Source: Streptomyces plumbidurans
Lineage (GTDB): Bacteria > Actinomycetota > Actinomycetes > Streptomycetales > Streptomycetaceae
NCBI RefSeq assembly: GCF_019857225.1
Contig: NZ_JAFJSY010000004.1
Location: 124,001 to 188,000 of the forward strand
Direction of reading: 5' to 3'
Length of the DNA: 64,000 nt
The notes under the pieces: generated by a model
Told to the model about the DNA's origin: nothing
Seen by the model: the letters and a program-made list of their open reading frames with translations, nothing else
Database searches by the model: none
Program-made: the position numbers and the translations under genes
In this document: in pieces, positions 12,701 to 26,798 of the stretch
Layout of the letters: every line of letters starts with the position of its first letter
Position numbering within the stretch: position 1 is the first letter of the stretch

Positions 12701-13374
12701 ACGACGGCACGCTGCTGGGCAGCGGGACCTTCACCGACGAGACGGCGTCAGGCTGGCAGACCCTGACGTTCGCCACTCCGGTGCCCGTCACCGCCGGCAC
12801 CCCGTACGTCGTCTCCTACCACGCGCCGAACGGCAACTACGCGGTGAACGGCGGCTACTTCGCCGGCGCCCACCAGTCGTATCCGCTCACCGCCACGGCC
12901 GACACCACCGCGCACCACAACGGGCTCTACCGCTACGGCGCCGACCCGGCCTTCCCCAACGGCTCCTACGGATCCGCGAACTACTGGGTGGGCCCGGTCT
13001 TCACCGCCGAGAACCCGAGCGCGTCCCTGGCCACGGAGACCGCAACGGAGGTGACCGCGTCCTCGGCGGCGCACACCGCCGACGCGGCGAGCCCCCTGGT
13101 CATGGCCGTGGACAAGAAGGCCGCGGTGGCCTCGGTCAAGGCGAGCGTGAGCATCGTCAAGGGCTCCAAGGCGGCCAGAAAGCTCCATGTCACGGCCGTC
13201 GTCTCCTACGACCGGGCGACCCGCAAGGCGTCCGTCCGTCTGTCCGCCCCCCTGCCGGACGGCACCCGGTTCAAGGTCACGGTCACGGCGAAGGACAAGC
13301 ACCGGCACACGGTGAAGTCCCGCAGCTGGACGCTGACGAGCAAGACCGTCTTCCACAAGAAGAAGAGCCGATGA
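9769..13374 (+). CDS. Large secreted protein: DMFase-beta-like domain, Ig-like domains, two DUF4082
   Basis: A 1201-residue exported protein of unknown role. Residues 1-32 form a signal peptide (MKRWSRRIRG, hydrophobic core, cleavage after AQA). Residues about 55-535 resemble the N,N-dimethylformamidase large-subunit-like domain seen in many secreted actinobacterial proteins (IYRLGWYGGDGARQM, YLSSGHDEYWT, GFFSGNEVFWKTR). An Ig-like domain (about 545-630), a DUF4082 module (about 640-800), a second Ig/SbsA-like domain (about 805-900), a second DUF4082 (about 910-1075) and a Lys-rich tail follow. No sortase or membrane anchor is visible. Its stop overlaps the glycosyltransferase start at 13371, so it is truly part of the polysaccharide operon. 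Binding or modifying the polymer outside the cell is a guess. Confidence 0.85.
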   Translation: MKRWSRRIRGGRLAVAAALILAVLPLAGSAQAASDPCGSGSNPIVCENSKPGSPKEDWFSPNAYGDIQGFSTKESVQAGDTVQFKIQSKTPYNVQIYRLGWYGGDGARQMSTAAEAAKTYPANYTTNPASCTTKPAAGLVDCGNWPVTASWTVPSDAVSGLYIANLTQTDGDGLMPYPFVVRNDSSTSDVVVQTSDQTWQAYNDYGGQDLYGGTGPAPDGRAYEVSYNRPLDIGGDNGIYGSEYMMLAWLERNGYDVSYTSGVDVSSANGAALLEKHKVYLSSGHDEYWTQSQYSNVLAARKAGVRQGFFSGNEVFWKTRLAPSIDGTSTADRTLVCYKMTKMAQNNGIADPSGSWTGTWMDPASKDYGQDYQPPNILTGSMFTVNGYRADAITVPGSYGKNRIWRNTSIAGLSSSQTATFPTGTLGYEWDSDIDNSTRPAGAIDVSSTTVDINDGKLRMDWGNVYGNGTATHNLVEFRDQDSGALVFGTATVQWSWGLTNVPTYNPDDTVVTEDSRMQQATLNILADMGVQPLTRQSNLVAATASTDTTGPTVTVTSPASGVTVPALKPLTIKGTATDSGGVVARVEVSTDGGKTWKAASGLSSWTFSWTPTAPGAASIKVRAVDDSVNIGAVTTIPVTVGPQACPCSIWPASAVPGTVNAGDGSSLELGVKFRTTVAGSITGVRFYKSPANTGTHTGSLWSASGTRLATGTFTDETDSGWQQLNFSTPVTVKANTTYVASYFAPNGGYSYDGGYFDDNDAGLAPLTALKSGTDGGNGVFHYGSTSAFPNTPSEGSNYWVDVVLDTSTASTTPPTVGSTSPTSGATDTSITAPVSATFSAAVDTDDVTFTVKDADGDTVPGAVTFPSSNKATFTPSTQLSLHTTYTASVQASDVWGNAMAEPVTWSFTTSSTPPAVTCPCTLWSASATPATTDTTGDTNSVELGTRFTSSADGWVTGVTFYKGTGNTGTHTGSLWTDDGTLLGSGTFTDETASGWQTLTFATPVPVTAGTPYVVSYHAPNGNYAVNGGYFAGAHQSYPLTATADTTAHHNGLYRYGADPAFPNGSYGSANYWVGPVFTAENPSASLATETATEVTASSAAHTADAASPLVMAVDKKAAVASVKASVSIVKGSKAARKLHVTAVVSYDRATRKASVRLSAPLPDGTRFKVTVTAKDKHRHTVKSRSWTLTSKTVFHKKKSR

Positions 13375-14417
13375 GCAGCGTCAGCGTGGTGATCCCCTGC
13401 TACAAGTACGGCCACTTCCTGGCCGACTGCGTCAGCAGCGTCCTGGACGAGCAGGACGGCGTCGACGTCCGCGTCCTCATCATCGACGACGCCTCGCCCG
13501 ACGACTCGGCGGCGGCCGCGCAGAAGCTGGCCGCCTCCGACCCGCGGATCGAGGTCCTCGTCCACGAGAGCAACAAGGGCCATATCGCCACGTACAACGA
13601 GGGCCTGATGGAATGGGCCGACGGCGACTACGTGGCCCTGCTGTCCGCCGACGACCGGCTGGTGCCGGGCGCACTGGTCCGGGCCGCCCGGCTGCTGGAC
13701 GAACACCCCGAGGCGGGCTTCGCCTACGGCCGCCCGCTGCGCTTCCAGCACGGAGGCCCGCTGCCCAAGGCCCGTACACGGAGCACCGGTTCGGTCGTCT
13801 ACCCCGGGCACTGGTGGCTGGAGCGGCGCTTCCGCGAGGGCACCGGCTGCATCACCTCGCCCGAGGTCGTCGTCCGCACCAGCCTGCAGCACAAGGTCGG
13901 CGGCTACGATCCGGCCCTGCCGCACGCCGGCGACATCGAGATGTGGATGCGGCTCGCCTCGCACGCCGACGTCGGCTACGTCCGCGGCGCCGACCAGGCC
14001 TTCTACCGCGTCCACGGCAAGAACATGTCCACCGTCGACTTCGGGGGCCAGCTCGACGACCTGCGCCAGCGGCTGGTGGCCTTCGACTCGGTGCTGGCCA
14101 AGTGCGGCGACCTGCTGCCCGAGGCCGACCGCCTGGCCGAGCAGGTCCACACCCGCCTGGCCCGCTTCGCCCTGCGCCGGGCCTACCGGGCCTACGACCG
14201 CGGCCGTACCGGCGTCGTACCGGTCGACGAGTGCGTGACGTTCGCCGAGCAGTGCCTGCCGGGATACCAGGCCCTGCCGGAGTACCGCGCGCTACGGCTG
14301 CGGCGGCGCGTCGGCCCGAAGGCGATGCCGTATCTGCAGCCGCTGGTGTGGTCGGCCGTGGCCGAGCGCGGGCGGGAGTGGCTGTGGTGGGAGTCCTGGA
14401 AGCGCCGCGGTATCTGA
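13371..14417 (+). CDS. Glycosyltransferase family 2
   Basis: GT-A sugar transferase, 348 residues. MSSVSVVIPCYKYGHFL is the nucleotide-binding start, IIDDASPDDS the first acidic motif and LLSADDRLV the DxD-type metal motif (about residue 90). HAGDIEMWMRL supplies the acceptor-side E/D-x-W region typical of GT2 enzymes of surface polysaccharides. The ATG overlaps the stop of the secreted protein by 4 nt. It is the last gene of the plus-strand operon and is followed by a hairpin at 14434-14462. The sugar and linkage are unknown. Confidence 0.88.
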   Translation: MSSVSVVIPCYKYGHFLADCVSSVLDEQDGVDVRVLIIDDASPDDSAAAAQKLAASDPRIEVLVHESNKGHIATYNEGLMEWADGDYVALLSADDRLVPGALVRAARLLDEHPEAGFAYGRPLRFQHGGPLPKARTRSTGSVVYPGHWWLERRFREGTGCITSPEVVVRTSLQHKVGGYDPALPHAGDIEMWMRLASHADVGYVRGADQAFYRVHGKNMSTVDFGGQLDDLRQRLVAFDSVLAKCGDLLPEADRLAEQVHTRLARFALRRAYRAYDRGRTGVVPVDECVTFAEQCLPGYQALPEYRALRLRRRVGPKAMPYLQPLVWSAVAERGREWLWWESWKRRGI

Positions 14418-14433: not shown

Positions 14434-14462
14434 CCCGGTGGCCGGGTCAGTTGGCCACCGGG
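14434..14462. terminator. Hairpin between convergent genes
   Basis: CCCGGTGGCC (14434-14443) pairs perfectly with GGCCACCGGG (14453-14462). It sits between the convergent glycosyltransferase (+) and Wzz-like gene (-), overlapping the last codons of the latter, so it may terminate both. No clear T-tract is seen. Confidence 0.55.
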
Positions 14463-15112
14463 ACGGCAGGAGTGGAGCTTCGCCGGCGGCCCTGCGGGGT
14501 CGTCCGGCGGTTCAGCGCGTACCGGTCGAGCCACAGCGCGCCGACCACACCGGCCGCGAGCCCCAGCAGCGCCACGCCCGCAAGGCCGCGGGTCTTGTTG
14601 CCCCGCACCGCGGCGGCGCTCGGGGTGGTCAGCACGGAGGCGGTGATCCGCGCACCGGACGGGACGTGCTGGGCGCTCTGCAACTGCTCGACGTGCCGGG
14701 TGTAGACGTCGATGATGCGGCGCACCGCCGTCACCGCGGCGTCGGGCCCGGACGCCTGCGACTGCACCTGCAGGGACGGGATCAGATACTGCGGCGTCGC
14801 GCTGGTGCCGCTGTTGCGGGGGATCAGCTGATAGGTCCCCCGGACACCGGCCGCGTGCAGCTCCTCGGTCCCGGCGGGGGACCGCAGTTGCTGCACGACG
14901 CCGTAGGAGACCACCGCGAGCGGTGGCTGCAGATTGGTGTACTGGTTGGGCTGGTTCCGCGTCACCGGCGGCTTGAGCACGACCACTGCGGAGCCCACGT
15001 ACTGCGGCGCGGGCCGGAGCACGAAGTACGCCCCGGCGATCGTCACCAGCAGCGCGGCCACCACGACGTACCAGCGGCGGAGCAGCGCGTCGGCGACGTT
15101 TCCAGGCGACAT
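14447..15112 (-). CDS. Wzz-like chain-length/polysaccharide co-polymerase protein
   Basis: Small inner-membrane protein, 221 residues, with the Wzz plan: N-terminal cytoplasmic helix and TM1 (LLRRWYVVVAALLVTIAGAY), an extracytoplasmic domain of about 130 residues, and TM2 near residues 175-195 (GLAGVALLGLAAGVVGALWL) followed by a basic tail. Such proteins set polymer length with Wzy. No Walker motifs or tyrosine cluster are present, so it is not a Wzc kinase. The ATG at 15112 has GGAAGGA upstream. It is transcribed divergently from the Wzz-Wzy fusion gene at 15184, with 71 bp between them. Two more Wzz-type domains occur in the locus. Confidence 0.78.
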   Translation of the reverse strand: MSPGNVADALLRRWYVVVAALLVTIAGAYFVLRPAPQYVGSAVVVLKPPVTRNQPNQYTNLQPPLAVVSYGVVQQLRSPAGTEELHAAGVRGTYQLIPRNSGTSATPQYLIPSLQVQSQASGPDAAVTAVRRIIDVYTRHVEQLQSAQHVPSGARITASVLTTPSAAAVRGNKTRGLAGVALLGLAAGVVGALWLDRYALNRRTTPQGRRRSSTPAVPVAN

Positions 15113-15183
15113 ACGAGTTCCTTCCGTCACTCCCGATACTGGCAGGACGCGCGGTGGGATGCCACCGAATGGAGGGACGCATC

Positions 15184-17235
15184 GTGAGTCTTGGTGAGAT
15201 ATGGGCAATTCTGCGCCGACGCTGGTACTTCATGGTGCCCTTCACCGTGCTCAGCCTGATCGGTGGCGGCTATCTGTGGGTGACCGTGCCCGTCTCCTAC
15301 GAGTCGCACAGCTCCGTCGCGCTGCTGGACTCCTCGGCCGTCGCACGGCTCGCGCCCACCTTCGGCAATCCCATCTCGAACGCGGGCGGTTCGCTCATCG
15401 TCACGGCCGACGTGCTGATCAGAACGCTCGAATCGGCGGACGCCGCAAAGGAGTTGCAGGGCCGCGGAGTCACCGACGCGTACACGGCCGGCTTCGCACC
15501 GGCCAGCGACAGCCCGCTGCTGGTGCTCACGGTCACCGGCACGGACCGGGAGAAGGTGCTCAAGGAGACCAGCACCCTGACCGCGTTCGCCGGTGAGCAG
15601 CTCGACGCCCTGCAGTCCGCCGCGAAGGTCCCGCCCGCGTACGCCGTGCAGACCGCGCCCGTCGTGCTGCCGCAGACCCCCGTCGCCAAGTCCAAGAGCC
15701 GCTACCAGGGCGTCGCGGCCGTCGTCATCCTCGGTGTGGTCAGCGCGTTCCTGCTGTCCATCCTGATGGAGGGCGTCTCGGTGGTCCGCCGCCGCTACAA
15801 GACGGCGTCGAAACCCAAGAAGGCCCGCACTCCCGGGCGGGGCCGGGCGGGCATGCTCGGCCGGCGGGTCGACGCCACCGCGATCCTCACCGTCTACCTG
15901 GTGCTGGCCTTCTTCATCCCCTCGAACCTCGCCCTGCCCGCGCTCGGCGGAGTGGGCACCCCCGCCAATGTCTTCGCCCTGCTCGGCCTGATGTGGTACC
16001 TGGCGACCTGGCTCGGCGGCCGTATCCTGCCCGCGCCCGGCACCAGACTCGTGCGGGTCGCGCTGTGCGTGCTCGGGCTGGCCGTCCTTTCGGCGTACAT
16101 CTCCGACGCGATGCGCGAGAGTTCGCACGAGGAGGTCCTCGGGGCCGACCGCGGACTCATCGGCTTCCTGGTGTGGGTGTCCCTGGTCGTCCTGACCGCG
16201 GCGGCCATGCAGCAGCGCGGGCGGCTGGACGTGCTGATGCGCCGCGTGGTCGTCATGGCGTCCGTCGTCGCCGCGATCGGCTTCTACGACTTCTTCGCCG
16301 CCACCAACATCGCCGACTCCATCAACATCCCCGGCCTGCAGACCAGCGTGGCCCAGGTCAGCGTCATGGACCGCGGCGCCTTCACCCGGCCCCGGGCCAC
16401 CACGGCCCAACCCCTCGAATTCGCGGGCATGTTGGCCATCCTGCTGCCGTTCGCCGTCCAGCAGGCATTGGACCCGGTGCGCCGCCACCGCCACGCACTG
16501 CGCCGCTGGGGCCCGGTGATCCTGATGGCCGGCGCGCTGCCCCTGTCGGTGTCGCGGACCTCGATCATCGGCCTGCTGCTGGTGGCCCTGGTGATGGTGC
16601 CGCGCTGGAAGCCGGCCCGGCGCTGGGCCGCGATCGGTGTGCTGACGGGCTCCGTTGCCGTGTTCAAGGTGCTGGTTCCGGGCCTGATCGGCACCATCAC
16701 GGGCCTGTTCGCGTCGTTCCTGTCCAACTCCGACAGCAGCACCCAGGCCCGCACCGTCAAGTACAGCGCGATCGTGCCCTATCTGAAGGAACACCCGCTG
16801 TTCGGGCGGGGGTTCGGCACCTTCACCCCGGACCTGTACTTCTTCACCGACAACCAGTACATGCTGGGCCTCGCCGAGATGGGTCTGCTGGGGCTGATCG
16901 CCCTGCTCACCCTGTTCTTCACCGGCATCCACCAGGGCGGCGCGATCCGCCGGTTGGCGCGCACCGAGAGCGACCGTGAACTGGGCCAGGCGTTCTTCGC
17001 CTCGGCGCTGGTCGCCCTGGTCATCAGCGCCACCTTCGACTCGCTGAGCTTCCCGATGTTCGCCGGCATGTTCTTCCTGATGCTGGGGGCGGGGTCCGGC
17101 TATCTGGGCTTCGTCCGGCGCGAGGCGGCCGCCGCCACCGTGCCCGGCCCCCGCAGGACCCCGAAAACCGCACTGGCCCGACCAGTTGAGCGTCCCCGAC
17201 CGGCCGAGCTTCCCCGACCCGTGGAGTCCCGATGA
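15184..17235 (+). CDS. Wzz-domain/Wzy O-antigen-polymerase-like fusion protein
   Basis: A 683-residue membrane protein joining two functions usually encoded separately. Residues 1-205 resemble Wzz: MSLGEIWAILRRRWYFM, TM1, a periplasmic-type stretch with VLTVTGTDREKVLK, then TM2 (VVILGVVSAFLLSIL). After a basic linker (RRRYKTASKPKKARTPG) there are about ten or more hydrophobic segments (235-640) with a large loop and SRTSIIGLLLV and YLKEHPLFGRGFGTF, resembling O-antigen ligase/polymerase (Wzy_C) proteins. GTG at 15184 is chosen for its GGAGGG site and because it aligns with the start of the Wzz paralogue at 22326. It overlaps the downstream glycosyltransferase by 4 nt. Polymerase activity is inferred. 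Confidence 0.82.
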   Translation: MSLGEIWAILRRRWYFMVPFTVLSLIGGGYLWVTVPVSYESHSSVALLDSSAVARLAPTFGNPISNAGGSLIVTADVLIRTLESADAAKELQGRGVTDAYTAGFAPASDSPLLVLTVTGTDREKVLKETSTLTAFAGEQLDALQSAAKVPPAYAVQTAPVVLPQTPVAKSKSRYQGVAAVVILGVVSAFLLSILMEGVSVVRRRYKTASKPKKARTPGRGRAGMLGRRVDATAILTVYLVLAFFIPSNLALPALGGVGTPANVFALLGLMWYLATWLGGRILPAPGTRLVRVALCVLGLAVLSAYISDAMRESSHEEVLGADRGLIGFLVWVSLVVLTAAAMQQRGRLDVLMRRVVVMASVVAAIGFYDFFAATNIADSINIPGLQTSVAQVSVMDRGAFTRPRATTAQPLEFAGMLAILLPFAVQQALDPVRRHRHALRRWGPVILMAGALPLSVSRTSIIGLLLVALVMVPRWKPARRWAAIGVLTGSVAVFKVLVPGLIGTITGLFASFLSNSDSSTQARTVKYSAIVPYLKEHPLFGRGFGTFTPDLYFFTDNQYMLGLAEMGLLGLIALLTLFFTGIHQGGAIRRLARTESDRELGQAFFASALVALVISATFDSLSFPMFAGMFFLMLGAGSGYLGFVRREAAAATVPGPRRTPKTALARPVERPRPAELPRPVESR

Positions 17236-18134
17236 GCACGACCGTCGCCGTCATCGTCGTCACCTGGAACAGCGCCTCGGTGCTCCCCGGGTTCCTGGCC
17301 GCGCTGCCCGACGCCATGAAGGGCCTCGACCACCGGCTGGTCGTCGCCGACAACGACTCTGCCGACGACACCGTCGACATCCTCAAGACCCTGGCCCCCG
17401 AGGCCACCGTCGTCCAGACCGGCCGCAACGCCGGGTACGCCGCCGGGGTCAACGCGGCGCTGAACGCCGCCGGGGACATCGGCGCCGCCCTGATCTGCAA
17501 CCCCGACATCCGGATGCGGCAGGGCTGCGCGAAGCGGCTCGTCGACAGCCTGGGGGAGGGCGTCGGGATCGCCGTACCCCTGCTCTACGAGGAGGGCCGG
17601 GACACCCCCCACTATTCGCTGCGACGTGAGTCGAGCGTGCCGCGGGCGCTGGGCGAGGCGGTGATCGGCAACCGCCGGGCCGGGCGGTTCCCGGCCCTGA
17701 GTGAACTGGTCACCGACCCCGGCGCCTATCGCCGCCCCACCCGCGTCGACTGGGCGACCGGCGCCCTGATGGCGATCTCGGCCGACTGCCTGTCCGCCTG
17801 CGGTCCCTGGGACGAATCCTTCTTCCTCTACTCGGAGGAGACCGAATTCTGCCTGCGCGCGCGGGACTTGGGCCACGCCACACAGCTGGAGCCGACCGCC
17901 GAGGCCGTCCACCTCGGAGGCGACTCCCAGGTCTCACCCCGCCTGTGGAGCCTGCTCACGGTCAATCGCGTACGGCTGTACGCGCGTCGGCACGGAAGGC
18001 TCGCCACCCTCTGCTTCCGGGCCGCCGTCCTGCTGCGCGAGGCGTCACGGGCGGCCCTCGGACGCAAGGCGAGCCGCGCGGCGGCGGGCGCCCTTCTCAG
18101 GCCGGGGGCGCTGCGGGCGACGCCCGGGCCGTGA
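17232..18134 (+). CDS. Glycosyltransferase family 2, rhamnosyltransferase-like
   Basis: GT2 enzyme, 300 residues. VAVIVVTWNSASVLPGFL, VVADNDSADDT, GRNAGYAAGVNAAL and CNPDIRM are the successive blocks of the WbbL-like rhamnosyl/galactosyl-transferase branch. WATGALMAIS and FFLYSEETEFCLRARDLG complete the acceptor/metal site typical of this branch. Its start overlaps the polymerase stop by 4 nt (ATGA), linking it to the Wzz-Wzy fusion. It is convergent with the gene ending at 18146, with only 11 bp between them. Rhamnose specificity is suggested by resemblance only. Confidence 0.86.
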   Translation: MSTTVAVIVVTWNSASVLPGFLAALPDAMKGLDHRLVVADNDSADDTVDILKTLAPEATVVQTGRNAGYAAGVNAALNAAGDIGAALICNPDIRMRQGCAKRLVDSLGEGVGIAVPLLYEEGRDTPHYSLRRESSVPRALGEAVIGNRRAGRFPALSELVTDPGAYRRPTRVDWATGALMAISADCLSACGPWDESFFLYSEETEFCLRARDLGHATQLEPTAEAVHLGGDSQVSPRLWSLLTVNRVRLYARRHGRLATLCFRAAVLLREASRAALGRKASRAAAGALLRPGALRATPGP

Positions 18135-18145
18135 CCGGAGGGCGC

Positions 18146-18940
18146 TCAGCCGCCGCTCCAAGTCGTGTAGAAACTCTCGGGGTTGACCAGGTACCGCACC
18201 GTCGCGTGCGGCACGTGGCGCACCTCGTGGTTCCGGCTGTAGCGGTACACCAGCTCCCAGTCCTCACGCGGGAGCACCTTCGGTGTCCGGCGCAGGCGGC
18301 TGAAGTGCAGGGCGCCGTCGCGGCGGGCCACGAACGCGTTGGTGTCGAGGAAGGACTCGCGGGCGGCGCGGCGGCGGTCGAACGGGACGGAGAGGGTGTC
18401 GCGTTCGGTGCCGTCCGGCAGGACGCGAAGCAGGGCGGTGTAGATGCCGTCGGGGCCGCCGGGGGAGTCCAGGACCGCCAACGCCCGTTCCAGATGGTCG
18501 GATTCCCAGACGTTGTCGTCGTCGAGGAAGGCCACGTAACGGGAGCGGGTGAGGCGGATGCCGACGTTGCGCACGACACCGGCCACGGCGGTGTTGCGGG
18601 CCAGTGACACCGCGAACAGCCGTGGATCGTCCGGGAGTTCGGGGAGCCCCGCGCCGTCGTCGACGACGATGACGACCTGGTCGCGCACGGTCTGCGCCAG
18701 CGCCGAGCGGACGGCCGCCCGCAGTGCGTCCGGCCGGCGGTGGGTGGCGATGACGGTGGCCACGAGGGCGCTGGGCATGGGCCCCGTTGCGGCCTTGAGG
18801 CGGCGGACCTCCGCGGATTCGAAGCGGCGCAGCCGCAGCGCGGACGGCGCGAGCAGCACCTTGTTGCGCAGCTCGAAGAGGACCAGCCAGCCGAAGGCGC
18901 CCTTGAGAAGCTCCCAGGGAGCCCGCGCGACACGTCTCAT
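18146..18940 (-). CDS. Glycosyltransferase family 2
   Basis: GT-A sugar transferase, 264 residues. After an N-terminal amphipathic or membrane-associated stretch (LLKGAFGWLVLFELRNKVLL), the catalytic fold begins at about residue 60 (LVATVIATHRRPDALR). VIVVDDGAGLPE and VAFLDDDNVWESDHLE are the acidic nucleotide and DxD motifs. ATG at 18940 has GAGGAAGAGGA upstream. It is the last gene of the minus-strand polysaccharide operon, 11 bp after the beta-helix lipoprotein gene. The donor sugar is unknown. Confidence 0.85.
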   Translation of the reverse strand: MRRVARAPWELLKGAFGWLVLFELRNKVLLAPSALRLRRFESAEVRRLKAATGPMPSALVATVIATHRRPDALRAAVRSALAQTVRDQVVIVVDDGAGLPELPDDPRLFAVSLARNTAVAGVVRNVGIRLTRSRYVAFLDDDNVWESDHLERALAVLDSPGGPDGIYTALLRVLPDGTERDTLSVPFDRRRAARESFLDTNAFVARRDGALHFSRLRRTPKVLPREDWELVYRYSRNHEVRHVPHATVRYLVNPESFYTTWSGG

Positions 18941-18951
18941 GGTCCTCTTCC

Positions 18952-19998
18952 TCAGCCGGCCGGTGCGGGGGTGATCGGGGTGCCGTCGGCGAAGCGGTTG
19001 TCGCGCCAGACGTTGCCGCTGCCCGTGGCGTTCCAGGCGGTGACGGCGCCGTAGACACCGGCGTTGCCGTGGTACCGGGTCGAGAAGACGTTGTCGGTGA
19101 CCGTGATCCCGGTGGCCCCGTCGCCGCCGCCGTAGAGGGCGTAGGCGCCGCCCGCCAGCAGGTTGCCGTCGATGACGGTGTCGGAGACATGGCCGGTGTC
19201 GGCGAACAGCCCGATGCTCGCGGACGCCCCCCGGTTCACGTCGACCGGGTTGAGCAGCGTGTTGTGCCGGATGACCAGCCTGCCCGTGTTGCCGCCGCCG
19301 CTGATCACCGCGTCCGTGTGCTGCCACTCGCCACCGGCGTTGCGGAACGGGACGAGGTCGTGGACGTAGTTGTCGTGGATGGTGCCCTGGCCCATGGACA
19401 GCGCGTTGCCGAACACGGAGATGTCGCACCAGCCGACCTCGACGGAGCTGGTCCCCATGTTGGACACGGCGTAGTCCACACCGCCGTTGTCGGGGCCCTT
19501 GCCCGGGACGGCCGTGATGGTGGTGTGCAGGACCCGCAACCCGTGATGGCCGGGACGGAGGTTGACGCCCCACCAATTGGTTGAGGTGATCCGGGAGTCG
19601 ACGATGGTCACGTCGTTCGCGTAGATGTCCAGGGACCCGGTGATGTCCCAGCCCTTGATGACCGTGCCGTCGGTCCTGACGCTCATGTTGCCTGTGGCGT
19701 GCGGCTTGAGGCGGGTCCGGGGGCCGGTGGTGCGGGCGCTGGGGAAGTCGGCCTCCACGGGTGCCACGGTGGTGACGCGGGTCGAGGGCTTGGCGCCGGA
19801 CCCGGTGGCGGAGGGCGGGGAGCTGGGGCTGGGCGTGGGGGAGGCCGTGGCCGAGGGGGAGGGGCTGGACGCCGGCGCGGCCGAGGGCCGGTCGTGGGTG
19901 CCGGCCGTGTGCGGTGACGCGGACGGAGCGCCGGAGCCGGAGCAGCCGGCGATCAGCAGCAGGGCCAGGCAGGCGAGCGGGCCGCGGAGCCTTCTCAT
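18952..19998 (-). CDS. Secreted lipoprotein with right-handed parallel beta-helix
   Basis: A 348-residue predicted lipoprotein. The signal peptide ends in the lipobox LIAGC (Cys about 18), followed by a Ser/Pro/Thr/Ala-rich flexible linker (about 20-75). From about 95 onward there are regularly spaced short beta repeats (IKGWDITGSLDIYANDVTI, VIRHNTLLNPVDV, VIDGNLLAGGAYALYGG), the pattern of pectate-lyase-like parallel beta-helices that bind or cleave polysaccharides. The ATG overlaps the Wzx stop by 4 nt, so it is embedded in the export operon. A role as surface lyase, hydrolase or anchor for the polymer is inference; catalytic residues could not be assigned. Confidence 0.75.
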   Translation of the reverse strand: MRRLRGPLACLALLLIAGCSGSGAPSASPHTAGTHDRPSAAPASSPSPSATASPTPSPSSPPSATGSGAKPSTRVTTVAPVEADFPSARTTGPRTRLKPHATGNMSVRTDGTVIKGWDITGSLDIYANDVTIVDSRITSTNWWGVNLRPGHHGLRVLHTTITAVPGKGPDNGGVDYAVSNMGTSSVEVGWCDISVFGNALSMGQGTIHDNYVHDLVPFRNAGGEWQHTDAVISGGGNTGRLVIRHNTLLNPVDVNRGASASIGLFADTGHVSDTVIDGNLLAGGAYALYGGGDGATGITVTDNVFSTRYHGNAGVYGAVTAWNATGSGNVWRDNRFADGTPITPAPAG

Positions 19999-21500
19999 AC
20001 GGCCTCCGGTGTCCGGGTGCCGCGCAGGAAGCCGAGGCCGGGCAGGACGCACAGCACGTAACTGGCCAGCGCCACCGCGCCGATGGCGAACACGGCCGGG
20101 GTGCCGTCGCCGAGCAGCCGTCGCGCGCCGAGGATCACCAGGGTCATCACGATTCCCCCGAGGAAGGGCCAGGCACAGGCTCTGGCGATGTGGGCGAGGC
20201 CGATCCCGGCCCGGCCGAGGGCGTGCAGGAACACCGGGACGACCAGCACTGCGCCGACCAGGACGTGGCCCTGCGCGACGCCGACGATGCCGCCCGTGCG
20301 CGCGCCGACGATCAGGACCGGGACGAGAGCGACGACCCACAGACCCTGCACGAGGATGAGGGAGCGCCGCTGCCCGGACGCCACCAGGCAGTCGTAGGCG
20401 AGTTCGCAGCCGATGCGGATCAGACCCAGGGCCATCAGCCAGGGCAGCGCCTCGGCGGCGGGCAGCCACTTGCCGCCGTAGACGAGGTGGACGACCGGGC
20501 CCGCGAGGCCGCCGAGCAGGACGCACAGGGGCACGGTGCCGGTGACCAGCACCCCGAGCGCCCGGCTGAAGCCCTGGGCGAGGGCCTGCGGGGTGTCGGC
20601 GAGGCGGGAGAAGCCGGCGAAGGAGACCCGCCGGGCCGCCTCGGAGATGACCCGGACGGGCCAGCCGGACATGTTGAACGCCAGGACGTAGAAGCCGAGG
20701 GAGACCCCGCCGAGCGTGGAGCCGACGACCAGGGTGTCCACGTTGACGACCGCGAGCGCGAGCAGGCTCGCACCGGCCAGGGGGAGCCCGAACTTCAGCA
20801 GGGCGCGGGCCTGTTCGCGGTCCCAGCCGAAGCGCAGGGTGCCCGGGGCGGCCACGGCGGAGGCGACGAGCGCGGCGACGTTGCCCACGACCGCGCCCCA
20901 CGCGAAGCTCATCGCGCCCCAGCCCGCGAAGGCCAGCGTCAGGGTCACGGCGGTGCTGAGGACGAAGTTGAGCGCGTCGATGAGCATTCGCTTGCCCTGC
21001 GCGAACTCGCGGGTCAGGAAGCCGGCGGGCACCTGCGCCACCCCGTCGATCACCAGGCACAGACACATCACGCGCAGGACGCCCGAGGCGTGCGGCGAGT
21101 CGAGCAGACCGGCCACCGTCGGCGCCGAGACGAACAGCGCGGCGTACAACACGACGCTGGAGGCGGTCGCCAGGGTCAGCACCGTCGGCGCGAAGCGGCG
21201 CGGGTCGCCGTCCCAGCGGATGAGGGCCAGGCTGACGCCCAGCTCGTTCGCCGAGAGCAGGACCAGCAGGACGGTCTGGGCGATGCCGTAGACGCCCCAC
21301 TCGGCCGGGCCCAGGGCGAAGCGCGCCAGCAGGATGCCCGTGGCGAAGTTGCCCAGGCGCATGACCACGGTGTTGATCAGGCTCCACCGGGCCGCCGAAC
21401 GGACCTTGCGGCCAAAGGAGTTGTCGACCGCCGGAACTGACGCCCCGGAGTTCCCGCTCGCCTCAGATCTCTCGCTGTCCGGTGTGCGAACGCTGTCCAT
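19995..21500 (-). CDS. Wzx-type oligosaccharide flippase
   Basis: Polytopic membrane protein, 501 residues, with 12-14 hydrophobic segments, of the polysaccharide-transport (PST/MOP) superfamily. It should flip the undecaprenyl-linked repeat unit across the membrane. Family-like phrases are SLINTVVMRLGNFATGILLAR at TM1 (20-residue core) and FYVLAFNMSGWPVRVISE mid-protein. ATG at 21500 has GAGGAG 8 nt upstream; the first 38 bp overlap the end of the Wzz-like gene, and the stop overlaps the lipoprotein start. With the Wzz-Wzy fusion at 15184 it implies a Wzx/Wzy-dependent assembly route. Confidence 0.88.
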   Translation of the reverse strand: MDSVRTPDSERSEASGNSGASVPAVDNSFGRKVRSAARWSLINTVVMRLGNFATGILLARFALGPAEWGVYGIAQTVLLVLLSANELGVSLALIRWDGDPRRFAPTVLTLATASSVVLYAALFVSAPTVAGLLDSPHASGVLRVMCLCLVIDGVAQVPAGFLTREFAQGKRMLIDALNFVLSTAVTLTLAFAGWGAMSFAWGAVVGNVAALVASAVAAPGTLRFGWDREQARALLKFGLPLAGASLLALAVVNVDTLVVGSTLGGVSLGFYVLAFNMSGWPVRVISEAARRVSFAGFSRLADTPQALAQGFSRALGVLVTGTVPLCVLLGGLAGPVVHLVYGGKWLPAAEALPWLMALGLIRIGCELAYDCLVASGQRRSLILVQGLWVVALVPVLIVGARTGGIVGVAQGHVLVGAVLVVPVFLHALGRAGIGLAHIARACAWPFLGGIVMTLVILGARRLLGDGTPAVFAIGAVALASYVLCVLPGLGFLRGTRTPEAV

Positions 21501-22326
21501 GAGTCGACTCCTCGTCGAGCGGCTCGGCGGCGGACGCCACGGCCGTGGCGGACCGTCCGGCCCCCGGCTGCGTGGCGCGCCGGTTCTCGGCGGAACGCGA
21601 CCAGGCGGGCGGCCGCCTGAGGGCGATCGTCTGGTCCGCGACCGGCTCCCCGGCCTTCGGCTCGGGGAAGTCGTCCTGCCCCGCCGGTTCTTCGGGCGGC
21701 GCGAATTCGTCCGGCCCCGCCGCGGTGCGCGGTCGGCGGCGCGCCTCCACGTAGAAGACGGCGACCAGGCTCAGCACCAGACCCAGGAGCCCGGCCATGA
21801 CCATGTACTCCAGCCGCGTCTTCGTCTGCGCCGCCGGGTTCTGCGGCGGCACGATCGTCGTCATGCGGATCATGGCCTTCGGGGCGACCGACTGCTGCTT
21901 CTGGAACTGGTCGAGGCGGTCCTTGGCGTACGAGGTGAAGACCTTGTCCGAGGCCAGGACGGAGGCCTTGTCGGTGCCGGTGACGGTCAGCCACATCAGC
22001 GGGCCCTGCGCGTTGTCGGCGAGCTTGGCCTCGAACGTGCCTTTGGCTCCACGGGACTTGAGCTCCCGCAGCGACACGTCGGAGTTGAGATTGCGGGCCA
22101 GGCTGTCGGCCATGCCGGTGAGCGAGGTCTGGGTGCTGAGGAAGGGGTTGCCGTCGTAGGCCATGGTGGCCTTCTGGGAGTTGAGGAGGACCACGGTGCT
22201 CTGCGACTGGTAGGTGACCGGGACCAGCACGAGGACGCCGACGACCAGACCGGCGGTCAGCAGCAGTCCCGGCAGCAGGACGTACCAGCGCCTGCGCATG
22301 ACGCGGAAGATCTCAGCGAGATCCAT
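21463..22326 (-). CDS. Wzz-like chain-length determinant protein
   Basis: A 287-residue membrane protein. MDLAEIFRVMRRRWYVLL leads into TM1 (about 19-38); an extracytoplasmic domain with LTVTGTDKASVLASD closely parallels the Wzz part of the fusion protein at 15184, so the two are paralogues. TM2 spans about 173-192, then a long Pro/Glu/Arg-rich cytoplasmic tail of about 90 residues. No Walker A/B motif is seen, so it is a Wzz-type or capsular-adaptor (CapA-like) protein without kinase. It lies 51 bp after the 2-epimerase gene and overlaps the Wzx gene start. Confidence 0.8.
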   Translation of the reverse strand: MDLAEIFRVMRRRWYVLLPGLLLTAGLVVGVLVLVPVTYQSQSTVVLLNSQKATMAYDGNPFLSTQTSLTGMADSLARNLNSDVSLRELKSRGAKGTFEAKLADNAQGPLMWLTVTGTDKASVLASDKVFTSYAKDRLDQFQKQQSVAPKAMIRMTTIVPPQNPAAQTKTRLEYMVMAGLLGLVLSLVAVFYVEARRRPRTAAGPDEFAPPEEPAGQDDFPEPKAGEPVADQTIALRRPPAWSRSAENRRATQPGAGRSATAVASAAEPLDEESTHGQRSHTGQREI

Positions 22327-22377: not shown

Positions 22378-23598
22378 TCATATGGGGAACGTTCGGTCCG
22401 TAGGTCTGGGCTGGTCCGTAGGTCTGGGCTGGTCCGTGGGGCTGGGCTGGTCCGTGGGGCTGGGCTGGTCAGTGGGGCTCGGCTGATCCGTGGGTCTCGG
22501 CCGGTCGGTCGGTCGTGGCCGGGTGCTCGCGGTGCCTCCTCCCAGCAGCACGTCGGCGATGCGGTCGCTCGCGCGGCCGTCCCACAGGTCGGGTCTGCGC
22601 GGTGCGGGCGGGGCGTCCAGTACGGCGCTCACGGTGGCCACGATCCGCGCCGGGTCCCGGCCGGCGAGCACATTGGTGCCCTGCTCGACGGTGATGGGGC
22701 GCTCGGTGTTGTCCCGCAGGGTCACACAGGGCACGCCCAGTGCGGTCGTCTCCTCCTGCACGCCGCCGGAGTCGGTCAGCACGAGGCGGGCCGCGTCCTG
22801 CAGCGCGATGAAGTCCAAGTACCCTGCGGGCGGCACGAGTTGGATGCCGCCCGGCACGCCGATCTCGGCCAGCTTCCCGGCCGCCCGCGGATGCACGGGC
22901 AGCACGAGCGGGCAGCTTCCGGCGATCTCGCCCAGGGCCTTGAGCAGTCCGGCGAGGACCTCGGGGTCGTCGACATTGGCGGGCCGGTGCAGGGTGACCA
23001 GGCCGAACTCGCCCTGGGACAGGCCGTATCGGCCGAGCACGTCCGAGGCGCGGGCCCGTTCCAGGTTGGCCAGCAGCGTGTCGATCATGACGTTGCCGAC
23101 CAGATGGATCTGGTCCTCCCGGTAGCCCTCCGCGCGCAGGTTGGCGACGGCATCGGGGGAGGGGGCCAGCAGGTAGTCGCTGACCCGGTCCGTGGCGACC
23201 CGGTTGACCTCCTCCGGCATGCCCCAGTCGCGGCTGCGCAGACCGGCCTCGACATGGGCGAGCAGCGGTCCGGCCTTGGCGGTGACCAGGGCGCAGGCCA
23301 GCGTGGAATTGATGTCGCCGACCACGACGACGAGGTCCGGCGCCACCTCCTCCAGCAGCGGTTCGAACGCGGTCATCACCCGTCCGGTCTGCTCCGCGTG
23401 GCTGCCGGAGCCGACCCCCAGGAAGCGGTCGGGCGGGCGGATGCCGAGGTCGGCGAAGAACACGTCGTTCATGGCCGGGTCGTAGTGCTGGCCGGTGTGG
23501 ACGAGGAGCAGCTCGGCGCCCCGGCGTTCCAGGGCGTCCATCACCGGTTTGATCTTCATGTAGTTGGGGCGCGCCCCGGCGACACAGACGATGCGCAT
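22378..23598 (-). CDS. Non-hydrolysing UDP-N-acetyl-amino-sugar 2-epimerase, WecB/WbpI-like
   Basis: Cytoplasmic GT-B-fold epimerase, 406 residues. WecB interconverts UDP-GlcNAc and UDP-ManNAc; the homologue WbpI does the same at C2 of UDP-2,3-diacetamido-glucuronate. Seen: VAGARPNYMKIKPV, HTGQHYD, HVEAGLRS, MPEEVNR, THRPANVD and DSGGVQEE, all family signatures. ATG at 23598 follows the dehydrogenase stop by 4 nt. The last 45 or so residues are a Pro/Thr/Asp/Gln hexapeptide repeat absent from the core family. The WbpI reading is favoured because WbpA, B, D and E-like genes are all present, but WecB activity alone is possible. Confidence 0.88.
   Translation of the reverse strand: MRIVCVAGARPNYMKIKPVMDALERRGAELLLVHTGQHYDPAMNDVFFADLGIRPPDRFLGVGSGSHAEQTGRVMTAFEPLLEEVAPDLVVVVGDINSTLACALVTAKAGPLLAHVEAGLRSRDWGMPEEVNRVATDRVSDYLLAPSPDAVANLRAEGYREDQIHLVGNVMIDTLLANLERARASDVLGRYGLSQGEFGLVTLHRPANVDDPEVLAGLLKALGEIAGSCPLVLPVHPRAAGKLAEIGVPGGIQLVPPAGYLDFIALQDAARLVLTDSGGVQEETTALGVPCVTLRDNTERPITVEQGTNVLAGRDPARIVATVSAVLDAPPAPRRPDLWDGRASDRIADVLLGGGTASTRPRPTDRPRPTDQPSPTDQPSPTDQPSPTDQPRPTDQPRPTDRTFPI
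22395..22520 (-). repeat. In-frame 18-bp tandem repeat, 7 units
   Basis: Seven contiguous 18-bp units (first unit 22395-22412) encode the C-terminal PTDQPS/PTDQPR hexapeptide tail of the 2-epimerase. The first two units are identical and divergence grows toward 22520. There are no spacers, so this is not a CRISPR. Confidence 0.93.
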
Positions 23599-23602
23599 GG
23601 CT

Positions 23603-24862
23603 TCAGAGCACCTCGATCGTGGGTCCGGACGGCAGCCGCCGACGGCAGTCCAGGACGAAGGGGGCGTGTTCGGCGACGAGTTCGTAGTCGAAGCTGTCGT
23701 GGTCCGTGAGCAGCACCACCACGTCGGCGCCCGCCAGCTCCTCGGGTGTCGGCTCGACCCGCACCAGCCGGGTGTCCACCGGCAGGCTCTCGACGACATG
23801 CGGATCCGCCGCCCTGACCTGCGCGCCCATGTCGAGCAGAAGTTGGGAGATGCGCAGGGCGGGCGACTCGCGGGCGTCGCCGGTGTTCTTCTTGTACGCC
23901 AGCCCCAGCAGCAGGACCCGCGAGCCGTTGACGGAGCGCCGCCGGTCGTTGAAGTGCTCGCTGATGCGGCGCGTCACGTACTCCGGCATATGGCCGTTGA
24001 TGTCGTTGGCCAGCTCCACGAACCGGAAGTTCTGGCCCAGTTCGCGCTGCACCCGCCAGGACAGATAGGAGGGGTCGATCGGCAGGCAGTGGCCGCCGAC
24101 GCCCGGGCCTGGCGTGAACTTCATGAAGCCGAAGGGCTTGCTGGAGGCCGCGTCGATGGCCTGCCAGATGTCGATGTCCAGGTGATGGGCGAACATCGCG
24201 ACCTCGTTGACCAACGCGATGTTCACATGCCGGAAGGTGTTCTCCAGCAGCTTGGCGAGCTCGGCCTCCTTGGGGGAGCGCACCGGCACGGTGGTGTCGA
24301 CGAGTTGGGCGTAGAAGTCCTGAACCGCCTTCAGAGAGGCGTCGTTCACTCCGGAGACGACCTTCGGGGTCTCCTTGAAGCCCCACACGGCGTTGCCGGG
24401 GTCGATCCGTTCGGGGCTGTAGCCGAGCTGGAAGTCGGCGCCCGCGGTCAGTCCCGAGCCCTCCTCCAGGATCGGCGCGAACAGCTCCTGGGTGGTGCCG
24501 GGATAGGTCGTCGACTCCAGGACGACCGTTGCGCCGGGACGCAGATAGCGGGCGAGGGTGACCGCCGACTCCTTGATGTACCGCAGGTCGGGGGTGCCCT
24601 CGTGCAGCGGGGTCGGCACGGTCACCACGGCGATGTCGAAACCGCCGCAGTCGCGGGCCGAATCGCTCGCCCGGTAGGTGCCGTTGTCCAGGGCTGCGCG
24701 GATCCTCTCGGAGGAGACGTCCTCGACGAAGGACTCACCGGCGGCGAGGCGCTTGATCCGCCGGGCGTCGACGTCGTAGCCGATCACCTCGTGTCCGACC
24801 TCGGCGGCCCGGATGGCCAGGGGCAGGCCGACGTAGCCCTGCCCCACCACGACGACGCGCAT
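23603..24862 (-). CDS. UDP-N-acetylglucosamine 6-dehydrogenase-like enzyme, WbpA family
   Basis: NAD-dependent four-electron dehydrogenase that turns the C6 hydroxyl of a UDP-HexNAc into a carboxylate, 419 residues. Seen: N-terminal Rossmann GQGYVGLPLA (8-17), YSPERIDPGN, catalytic Lys204 in AKLLENTFRHVNIALVNE and catalytic Cys259 in GPGVGGHCLPIDP, then a C-terminal UDP-binding domain with GLAYKKNTGDARESPA. The GGHCLPIDP form matches WbpA/TviB-type UDP-GlcNAc dehydrogenases more than WecC. The ATG overlaps the WecG-like stop by one base (TGATG) with AGGAGT upstream. It would supply UDP-GlcNAcA to the 3-dehydrogenase at 4637. Confidence 0.88.
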   Translation of the reverse strand: MRVVVVGQGYVGLPLAIRAAEVGHEVIGYDVDARRIKRLAAGESFVEDVSSERIRAALDNGTYRASDSARDCGGFDIAVVTVPTPLHEGTPDLRYIKESAVTLARYLRPGATVVLESTTYPGTTQELFAPILEEGSGLTAGADFQLGYSPERIDPGNAVWGFKETPKVVSGVNDASLKAVQDFYAQLVDTTVPVRSPKEAELAKLLENTFRHVNIALVNEVAMFAHHLDIDIWQAIDAASSKPFGFMKFTPGPGVGGHCLPIDPSYLSWRVQRELGQNFRFVELANDINGHMPEYVTRRISEHFNDRRRSVNGSRVLLLGLAYKKNTGDARESPALRISQLLLDMGAQVRAADPHVVESLPVDTRLVRVEPTPEELAGADVVVLLTDHDSFDYELVAEHAPFVLDCRRRLPSGPTIEVL

Positions 24863-25632
24863 CAGTGACTCCTGTTCGCGGGGGCGGTCGACGCGGTGAG
24901 CCGGATCAGCTCGCGCGCCGTCATGAGGAGGAAGGAGACGTTGGTGGTGAGGTAGCGCCGGCCCAGACGTCGGGGCTCCTGCTTGACGCGGTAGAGCCAC
25001 TCCAGGCCCCAGCGCTGCCAGGTGGCGGGGGCGCGCTTGGTGACTCCGGCCAGGATGTCGAAGGAGCCGCCGACGCCGTGCACCACGCGGGCGCCGGTGC
25101 GGGTGCCGTAGGCGGCGGTGAAGATCTCCTTCTTCGGCGAGGTCATGCCAAGGAAAAGCATCTGGGCACCGCTTCGCGCGATGGTGTCGGCGATCTCCTG
25201 CTGCTCGGAGTCGTCGAAGTAGCCGTTGCGGCTGCCGGCCACCTTCAGACCGGGGAAGCGGTCGGCGACGCGGAGCAGCATCCGCTCCATCACCTCCTGC
25301 TTGGCGCCGAGGAAGTACACGGAGATGCCCGCCGCCTCCGCCTCGGCCAGCAATCGCAGGAACAGGTCGATCCCGGCCACCCGCTCGGGCAGCGGGGCGC
25401 GCAGCACCCGCCCGGCCCACACCACGGCCTGTCCGTCCGCGAGGACCAGATCGCAGCCGGAGACCGCCTTGGCGAGCCGTTCGTCGCGCCGCATGTTGAC
25501 CAGCTTCGCGGCGTTGACCACGCCGATCTCCAACTGCCGTTTGTCACGCACCGCTTCGAGACAGCGCTCGACGGTCTCGTCCATCGTCAGCGGATCCAGC
25601 TCGACGCCGAACAACTTCCGACGCTCCGTCAT
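24862..25632 (-). CDS. WecG/TagA/CpsF-family glycosyltransferase
   Basis: Membrane-associated transferase of the GT26 family, 256 residues, which moves ManNAc, ManNAcA or related sugars onto polyprenyl-linked acceptors. Seen: VVNAAKLVNMRRDE, LADGQAVVWAGR, ERVAGIDLF (the TagA T/S-G-x-D region appears as AGID), YFLGAKQEV and LGMTSPKKE (family GSPKQE block). A Rossmann-like core ends near residue 200, followed by the basic C-terminal tail used for membrane docking in TagA. It is linked by short overlaps to the WbpA-like gene and to the unknown gene at 25629. ManNAc-type donor use fits the 2-epimerase in the same operon. Confidence 0.87.
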   Translation of the reverse strand: MTERRKLFGVELDPLTMDETVERCLEAVRDKRQLEIGVVNAAKLVNMRRDERLAKAVSGCDLVLADGQAVVWAGRVLRAPLPERVAGIDLFLRLLAEAEAAGISVYFLGAKQEVMERMLLRVADRFPGLKVAGSRNGYFDDSEQQEIADTIARSGAQMLFLGMTSPKKEIFTAAYGTRTGARVVHGVGGSFDILAGVTKRAPATWQRWGLEWLYRVKQEPRRLGRRYLTTNVSFLLMTARELIRLTASTAPANRSH

Positions 25633-26798
25633 ATCCGGCCCCCCTGCCAGGCGTAAAGCATCCAGCCGAACTCGTACGGCCGGCATTCGCGGTCCACTGA
25701 CAGGGGGCGGTACACCCGGTCCAGGGACTTCAGCCGGGCGCCCGGCGCGAGTCGCGTCGACAGGCCACGGGCGGCACGTACGGCCTTCTTCGGGTCGCCC
25801 CGGTAGACCTTGCGCCAGGTGGCGCCGAGCTCGTCGAGGATCATCGGCTCGCGGTGCTGAGAACCGGCCAGTTCGGGTACGTCCGTCATCCAGCGCAGCC
25901 CCTTGCGGACGGCCGCGCCGAAGTCGGTGCCGCCGGCGTCGGCGAGGTCGAACAGGGCGGTCGGGGCCATCGCGTGCTGATGGACGCTGTAGACGGGGTA
26001 GCCCTCCACGACACCGCCGGTGCGCGCGTCGTAGTGCCACCACCACTGCCCGCCCTCGCCCTGCAGTTCACAGATCCGCGCGGCACACGCCTCGGCCGCG
26101 GCCAGCGCCTCCGGGTCGCCGTCCCCGTCACCACTGGCATGGGCGCGGGCCAGCGCCTGCAGCGGGTAGGTCTGGTCGGCGAAGCAGCTGACGTGCGCCC
26201 GGTACCAGGGCACCAGGCCCGGGCCGGTGGCGTGCGGGAAGAGCGGACTGCCCTCGATCCGGGCCCGCAGCAGACGGTTGCGGGCCGCGGCGAAACGTGC
26301 CTCCACGTCGACCGTGTCACGCGCCGCCGTGAGGGCGGACAGCACCCAGGCGGCCTCGACGGTGTACTGCGGCCGGTCCTCGTCGTCCAGGGCGTCAACC
26401 CGGGCGACGGCGTCGGAGAGCTTGGGATGCTCGGTCTCGGCGGCGGCCCAGGCGATCAGTGCCGCGTCACCGAGATTGGTCACCGCGGGCAGCGATTCGA
26501 TCAGCAGGCCGGTGAACTCCTGCGCCGTACGCCCCCCGAGCACCGCACGCTGGCGGTCCTCGGGCAGAAAACGGACGCCCAGTGCGGTGATGGCCGCATA
26601 GCGGGTGCTGGTGCCCCGGCGCTCCAACGTCCATGAACCGTCCGGGGCTTGCTGTCCGGCCATGGTGAAGACGAAGGCCTCACTGCCGGGCAGCAGCATC
26701 GACGGAAGCCCCAACTCGGCGACGGTGAGAAGCCGTTGGGCGAGCGCAAGAAGCGGCGGTTCCTCCTGAGCGAGTGCCGCGAGACGTGTGGTGGTCAT
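25629..26798 (-). CDS. Conserved protein of unknown function, helical-repeat fold
   Basis: I do not recognise this 389-residue soluble protein with confidence. It has repeated helical segments separated by aromatic loops (DGSWTLERRGTSTRYAAI, NLGDAALIAWAAAET, YTVEAAWVLSALTAA, GGQWWWHYDARTGGVV, YPVYSVHQHAMAP), reminiscent of alpha/alpha-toroid proteins such as prenyltransferase/squalene-cyclase repeats or certain glycoside hydrolases and lyases. No signal peptide or membrane helix is seen. It is probably the first gene of the minus-strand operon and overlaps the WecG-like gene by 4 nt, so it should act with it, perhaps on a lipid-linked or nucleotide sugar. ATG at 26798 has only a weak ribosome site. 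Confidence 0.65.
   Translation of the reverse strand: MTTTRLAALAQEEPPLLALAQRLLTVAELGLPSMLLPGSEAFVFTMAGQQAPDGSWTLERRGTSTRYAAITALGVRFLPEDRQRAVLGGRTAQEFTGLLIESLPAVTNLGDAALIAWAAAETEHPKLSDAVARVDALDDEDRPQYTVEAAWVLSALTAARDTVDVEARFAAARNRLLRARIEGSPLFPHATGPGLVPWYRAHVSCFADQTYPLQALARAHASGDGDGDPEALAAAEACAARICELQGEGGQWWWHYDARTGGVVEGYPVYSVHQHAMAPTALFDLADAGGTDFGAAVRKGLRWMTDVPELAGSQHREPMILDELGATWRKVYRGDPKKAVRAARGLSTRLAPGARLKSLDRVYRPLSVDRECRPYEFGWMLYAWQGGRI

Follow-up and report, generated by a model that had tools for sequence, protein, structure and literature searches.

Does a single gene of Streptomyces plumbidurans encode both a Wzz chain-length protein and a Wzy polymerase and, if it does, does the covalent link dictate the ratio in which the two work together? 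The question is raised by an open reading frame at 15184..17235(+) of the window, by which we mean the whole stretch of 64,000 nucleotides that was analysed; the genome that it comes from measures 8.6 Mb and is 99.99% complete. The original prediction described the product as a Wzz chain-length domain fused to a Wzy-type polymerase, with a stoichiometry fixed at 1:1.

One reading frame with two predicted membrane domains

The wzz-wzy fusion gene encodes 683 amino acids in a single uninterrupted frame, from a GTG start to a stop codon that ends at 17235. The GTG at 15184 appears to have a good ribosome-binding site: a Shine-Dalgarno-like GGAGGG (15171..15176, +) can be read 7 nucleotides upstream. 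Across 38 orthologues, mean conservation is 0.80 in the Wzz half, 0.52 in the linker, 0.87 in the Wzy half and 0.60 in the tail, and because of these regional differences the protein appears to be built of two constrained domains with a free basic linker between them. The linker (residues 204-229, 15793..15870, +) has ten lysines or arginines and no aspartate or glutamate, and it varies among the 38 orthologues both in sequence (mean identity 52%) and in length (22-47 amino acids). Its basic nature is consistent with an N-in topology, in which two trans-membrane helices bring the chain back and the Wzy half begins in the cytoplasm. An internal restart that would yield free Wzy was considered and rejected: the orthologues shown have leucine or a different residue in place of M224 of the linker, and no internal ATG is conserved.

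The N-terminal half (residues 1-203, 15184..15792, +) has a trans-membrane helix at residues 14-34, an extracytoplasmic alpha/beta domain and a second trans-membrane helix at about residues 171-203. Right before this second helix lies a proline motif, PQTP (residues 163-166), of which P163 is invariant and P166 is at least 90% conserved in 53 sequences. Residues 2-217 are 36% identical (E=1.4e-30) to the stand-alone Wzz-like protein encoded at 21463..22326(-), and both proteins contain RRRWY and LTVTGTD, as had been noticed from the sequence before. This paralogue passes the cut-off of the Pfam family PF02706 (Wzz) in a genome search and is thus itself a Wzz. The match of the fusion to PF02706, which is also N-terminal, remains below threshold (14.1-17 bits, cut-off 25.5 bits); in the family of the fused Wzz domain, PF02706 matches 48 of 53 members at E<=0.01.

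A sequence search of the N-terminal half against the PDB returned nothing useful; the relationship to polysaccharide co-polymerases (PCPs) emerged by fold search. Modelled alone, the domain reached a pLDDT of 80, with the elements H14-34, E39-48, helices, E99-104, E112-119, H122-146, E156-161 and H171-205, hence with two trans-membrane helices around one extracytoplasmic alpha/beta domain, as is expected of a PCP. The top Foldseek matches of this model in the PDB are the PCPs KpsE (1.5e-6), WzzB (6rbg, 8e-5) and Wzc (1e-4), and the model accordingly predicts a PCP fold for the N-terminal half.

The C-terminal half (residues 230-645, 15871..17118, +) is polytopic with 10-12 trans-membrane helices and passes the cut-off of PF04932 (Wzy_C) at residues 445-575 (E 8e-15, 55.3 bits, cut-off 31.7 bits), in line with the polymerase-like region that had been proposed. 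The full-length AlphaFold model is of moderate quality (pLDDT 67.7, pTM 0.59); its best match in the PDB is WaaL (7tpg, 3.5e-6), followed by FtsW (about 1e-3) and then by PCPs. By sequence, a profile of 39 Wzy halves has WaaL (7tpg, 2.9e-4) as its sole significant match in the PDB. A polytopic fold of the GT-C/SEDS type is therefore predicted, and the only non-polymerase family that the C-terminal half matches is that of the related ligase WaaL. One frame thus joins a PCP-type to a Wzy/WaaL-type half, as judged from sequence and predicted folds together.

In all 79 actinomycete Wzy sequences compared, R397, R402, E412, R458, R523, G541, G543, D556, G567 and D619 are invariant. The stretch from R397 to the near-invariant N557 (16372..16854, +) contains the putative active site. 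The conserved arginines R397, R402, R458 and R523 are predicted to sit in two extracytoplasmic loops, the outward orientation following from the model and from the basic linker. Of the periplasmic Arg/His pair for which the original prediction suggested looking, only the arginine part is seen: there is no histidine among the class-wide conserved columns of the 79 sequences, and an invariant aspartate, D556, is present instead. The catalytic histidine of WaaL, in a large extracytoplasmic loop, is His338, and RodA has been proposed to use an aspartate there (PMC10449877); D556 thus suggests itself as candidate catalytic base, with a placement given by motif order, as the profile alignment to 7tpg ends before D556. 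The motif RX10G is present (R404-X10-G415), and neither of its residues is kept outside the Streptomycetaceae, to which it is restricted; it was rejected as a family-wide signature. As Wzy proteins, such as those of Pseudomonas and Shigella, differ in having RX10G or RX15G (PMC12004945), the motif appears too variable to define the Wzy family as a whole.

The joined frame is conserved in Streptomycetaceae

In a collection of genome contigs, 66 of 69 loci have the joined frame; they belong to Streptomyces, Actinacidiphila and Streptacidiphilus, include finished chromosomes and are 62-95% identical. The gene is found in 19 of 199 genomes of a genus sample, each time with both halves in one frame. 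A family sample contained 42 genomes with the gene: 37 fused, four split and one frameshifted. An order sample had 36 fused genomes, and here both proteins also matched as separate stretches in 13 genomes of a sister family, with separate genes confirmed in the seven that were read directly. There was no clear case of a further N-terminal fusion in the class and phylum samples. The N-terminal fusion thus appears to be confined, within our samples, to one clade: the Streptomycetaceae plus one MAG (L077) of an unclassified actinomycete, which clusters with them. The frameshift in the family sample (G303:C2:196767-198715) lies in the Wzy half of the fusion gene and reflects either a pseudogene or a sequencing error.

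These data bear on whether the fusion is an artefact of sequencing or assembly that merges two genes. Such an artefact might be suspected from this frameshifted genome and from some Kitasatospora, in which both proteins are encoded by tandem genes parted by one in-frame stop codon. However, the joined frame was found independently in 66 loci, finished chromosomes among them, across a wide range of identities; an artefact has a negligible probability. The assembly-error reading is refuted, and the fusion is real and conserved.

Separate genes in relatives and fusions in reverse order

A class-wide sample was inspected locus by locus, and 63 loci lacked the N-terminal fusion. Of these, 58 (four of them the Kitasatospora cluster) have wzz and wzy on one strand, with wzz immediately before wzy; a further locus has wzy flanked by wzz on either side, and the remaining four have a Wzz domain at the C-terminus of Wzy. 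The genes are also split in a Nonomuraea locus, a chromosome-sized record that was the only match in a plasmid collection.

In the Wzz tree as in the Wzy tree, the fusion groups with the tandem pair of Kitasatospora. A second, divergent wzz (lineage B by tree) adjoins this pair, just as a divergent lineage-B wzz (14447..15112, -) adjoins the fusion in 66/66 loci; it is also found beside the pair in six of seven sister-family loci that were read, the seventh being a contig end. Because the divergent wzz adjoins both and both trees group the fusion with Kitasatospora, the fused gene occupies the site held by two separate genes elsewhere, and the fusion joined ancestral neighbours. In Kitasatospora, the wzz stop codon and the apparent wzy start are within about 10 nucleotides of each other, so that a small local change would fuse the genes. 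We do not claim read-through of the Kitasatospora stop codon: in three loci both genes are in one frame, with a single TAG between them, but wzy of L096 is in a different frame and starts at a codon of its own downstream of the stop.

The fused Wzz domain and the free copy at 21463 belong to one lineage (A), in which the fused domain forms its own long-stemmed clade apart from the free copy. A lineage-A tree of fused, free, Kitasatospora and sister-family copies recovered no branching order, and the duplication is thus not tied in time to the fusion.

Two further observations concern these relatives. The wzz and wzy genes of a contig labelled Saccharothrix sp. ST-888 (L092) have very short branches within the clade of Kitasatospora; the contig is probably a mislabelled Kitasatospora, or else the genes were recently transferred. 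In family f17 (L182, L186, L192-L194, L197, L200, L203, L205) wzz of the upstream-partner lineage has a second, paralogous copy farther upstream, also on the same strand, in what appears to be another Wzz duplication without fusion.

The four proteins with a C-terminal Wzz domain (L170:862-2796(-), L181:3020-5062(+), L199 and L201) come from other actinomycete families and have, in one frame of about 650-690 amino acids, Wzy followed by a domain of the TM-PCP-TM type. Of their Wzy halves, the two that were tested score above the PF04932 cut-off; their Wzz halves are not recognised by Pfam and score 90-127 bits with a Wzz profile built here. Three are close relatives, with Wzz domains that group with lineage B; the fourth belongs to a different family, and its Wzz domain sits on a long branch in another part of the tree. 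Three of the four loci retain a separate wzz upstream; none was detected in the L201 stretch examined. The reverse fusions probably represent two events; together with the Streptomycetaceae case, they suggest that Wzz and Wzy fused about three times in actinomycetes, in one order or the other.

The polysaccharide locus

The window encodes a polyprenyl-phosphate sugar-phosphate transferase as priming enzyme (3165..4604, +), family 2 glycosyltransferases at 13374..14417(+), 17232..18134(+), with a start codon that overlaps the fusion stop, and 18146..18895(-, start approximate), and a Wzx flippase (Polysacc_synt_3, MOP family; 19995..21500, -). It further encodes a UDP-GlcNAc 2-epimerase (WecB) above the TIGR00236 cut-off (22378..23600, -, start approximate), a nucleotide-sugar dehydrogenase (23603..24853, -) and a WecG/TagA/CpsF glycosyltransferase (24862..25659, -, start approximate), as well as aminotransferases and acetyltransferases. 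The locus core is conserved in 55/55 fusion loci with long flanks. Both Wzz-like proteins that had been noted nearby, at 14447-15112(-) and 21463-22326(-), are indeed Wzz-like. We did not adopt an equation with the published Streptomyces teichuronic-acid (utr) locus, for which Wzy and Wzz are not mentioned (PMC13274773). Nor did we assign a sugar firmly (ManNAcA or ManNAc3NAcA): WecB is the one member of the uronic-acid pathway that qualifies as an equivalog.

No Wzc-type BY-kinase scored above the TIGR01007 cut-off anywhere in the genome. The original prediction had seen no such kinase either, and its suggestion that length control may differ from that of classic systems is consistent with its absence; the absence is not unusual though, as PCP-1 systems likewise have no Wzc kinase.

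The locus contains two more proteins of note. One, a lipoprotein (18952-19995, -), has a sequence reminiscent of a parallel beta-helix and lacks any Pfam match; it is present in 55/55 fusion loci and is possibly a polymer-modifying or polymer-cleaving enzyme; a similar-looking lipoprotein is encoded beside wzy in Nonomuraea (L218:8001-8906), with no BLAST match between the two. The secreted protein of 1201 amino acids at 9769-13374(+) has a DMFA2_C domain (N,N-dimethylformamidase-like), two DUF4082 and Ig-like domains, and is found in 55/55 fusion loci and in Kitasatospora.

Stoichiometry and proposed mechanism

The complex of WzzE and WzyE has about eight WzzE to one WzyE, and Wzy lies within the lumen that the Wzz ring encloses in the membrane (PMC10030265). 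A free lineage-A wzz lies within 10 kb of the fusion in 58 of 66 loci; six of the eight misses are contig ends, and one further copy is found at 11.7 kb. All 12 Streptomycetaceae genomes examined with a fusion (one of them frameshifted) also have a free lineage-A copy, and exhaustive searches of four Kitasatospora genomes found a single lineage-A copy in each. Given the ratio of about 8:1 measured elsewhere and the free Wzz paralogues retained beside the fusion, we consider a ring with a single tethered Wzz-Wzy subunit, the others being free Wzz, the likeliest arrangement. The predicted fixed 1:1 stoichiometry does not follow from the fusion, for the same two reasons.

We thus read the gene, with a probability of roughly 0.6, as a natural fusion of a PCP subunit and a Wzy polymerase in a Wzx/Wzy-dependent polysaccharide locus, with the fused Wzz as one subunit of a mixed ring. 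The local glycosyltransferases would make lipid-linked repeat units, Wzx (19995) would flip them, and the Wzy half would polymerise them outside the membrane. The fused Wzz domain would be one subunit of the Wzz ring and keep Wzy inside or beside it, while the free Wzz of lineage A (21463), possibly together with that of lineage B (14447), would supply the remaining subunits and set chain length. The tether would ensure a co-polymerase subunit on every polymerase without imposing an overall 1:1 ratio. A more tentative extension is that several actinomycete Wzz/Wzy fusions, in both orders, have a fused subunit that seeds a hetero-ring with free Wzz, the composition (fused : free A : free B), and not ring size alone, setting the length.

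The fusion might instead be a true 1:1 machine that assembles alone, as monomer, dimer or ring of fusions; its N-terminal half would then act as a dedicated lid or tether, with another step served by the free Wzz proteins. The separate, long-stemmed clade of the fused domain is what would be expected after such specialisation, and the free copy has diverged to about 36% identity. We nevertheless consider this unlikely, because the one measured Wzz:Wzy complex is about 8:1 with a single Wzy in the lumen (PMC10030265) and because practically every fusion genome that could be assessed keeps free copies of both lineages, A and B, at the locus. It is quite improbable, too, that the C-terminal half is a WaaL-like ligase that attaches the polymer to a wall acceptor. 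WaaL is its closest solved structure, and PF04932 spans ligases and polymerases alike; however, the genome encodes three Wzy_C proteins, of which the other two are on other contigs, leaving the locus with none but the fusion. Moreover, the loop in which the catalytic histidine of WaaL would be expected from motif order has an invariant aspartate, the residue proposed for RodA (PMC10449877), and across the actinomycetes the gene has wzz as its partner, as polymerases do. We infer that the C-terminal half acts as a polymerase and not as a ligase, and retain the mixed ring as the preferred reading.

Both halves are of known kinds; what is new is that they are covalently joined, and in both orders. 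The open-access literature that was searched yielded no description of a natural Wzz-Wzy fusion; with subscription journals and InterPro architectures outside this search, 'undescribed' is provisional. The number of Wzz per Wzy and the placement of Wzy in the ring rest largely on one low-resolution complex of ECA synthesis. The fusion offers a direct test of the count and arrangement of Wzz and Wzy in the membrane: a natural tether avoids dissociation of the pair at purification and marks the Wzz subunit that touches Wzy, and Kitasatospora, with the same two proteins unfused, is a natural control. Separate fusions in both orders are an evolutionary argument that Wzz and Wzy work as one complex in Gram-positives. 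Length control by ring composition, if true, is something for which we found no description in Wzx/Wzy systems.

Comparison with known systems

The N-terminal half has the PCP alpha/beta domain between two trans-membrane helices in common with Wzc (PCP-2a) and KpsE (PCP-3), but has no kinase domain and is joined to a polymerase instead; it is also much shorter than enterobacterial Wzz. The C-terminal half shares its predicted fold and the arginine-rich extracytoplasmic site with the ligase WaaL (7tpg) and with the SEDS proteins FtsW and RodA. It differs from WaaL in the invariant aspartate where motif order would place the catalytic histidine, and no lipid A acceptor is expected in this Gram-positive bacterium.

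For Actinoplanes missouriensis, the published assignment of the wps clusters has Wzy and Wzz encoded by separate genes of a Wzx/Wzy pathway (PMC13390465), and the likeness comes from that assignment and not from sequence. The tandem wzz-wzy genes of Kitasatospora and Nonomuraea encode homologous proteins in the same gene order, separate there and fused here, and with Kitasatospora the adjacent divergent lineage-B wzz is common to both. The reverse-order fusions likewise unite Wzy with a PCP-type domain in a single polypeptide, but have Wzz at the C-terminus. The system of enterobacterial common antigen, WzzE-WzyE, likewise pairs a two-TM co-polymerase with a Wzy polymerase, and a WecB-like epimerase, an NDP-sugar dehydrogenase and a WecG-family transferase are encoded locally here too. 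The periplasmic domain of WzzE is much larger, and WzzE and WzyE are two proteins at about 8:1 (PMC10030265), whereas Streptomyces plumbidurans has one polypeptide and two free Wzz paralogues.
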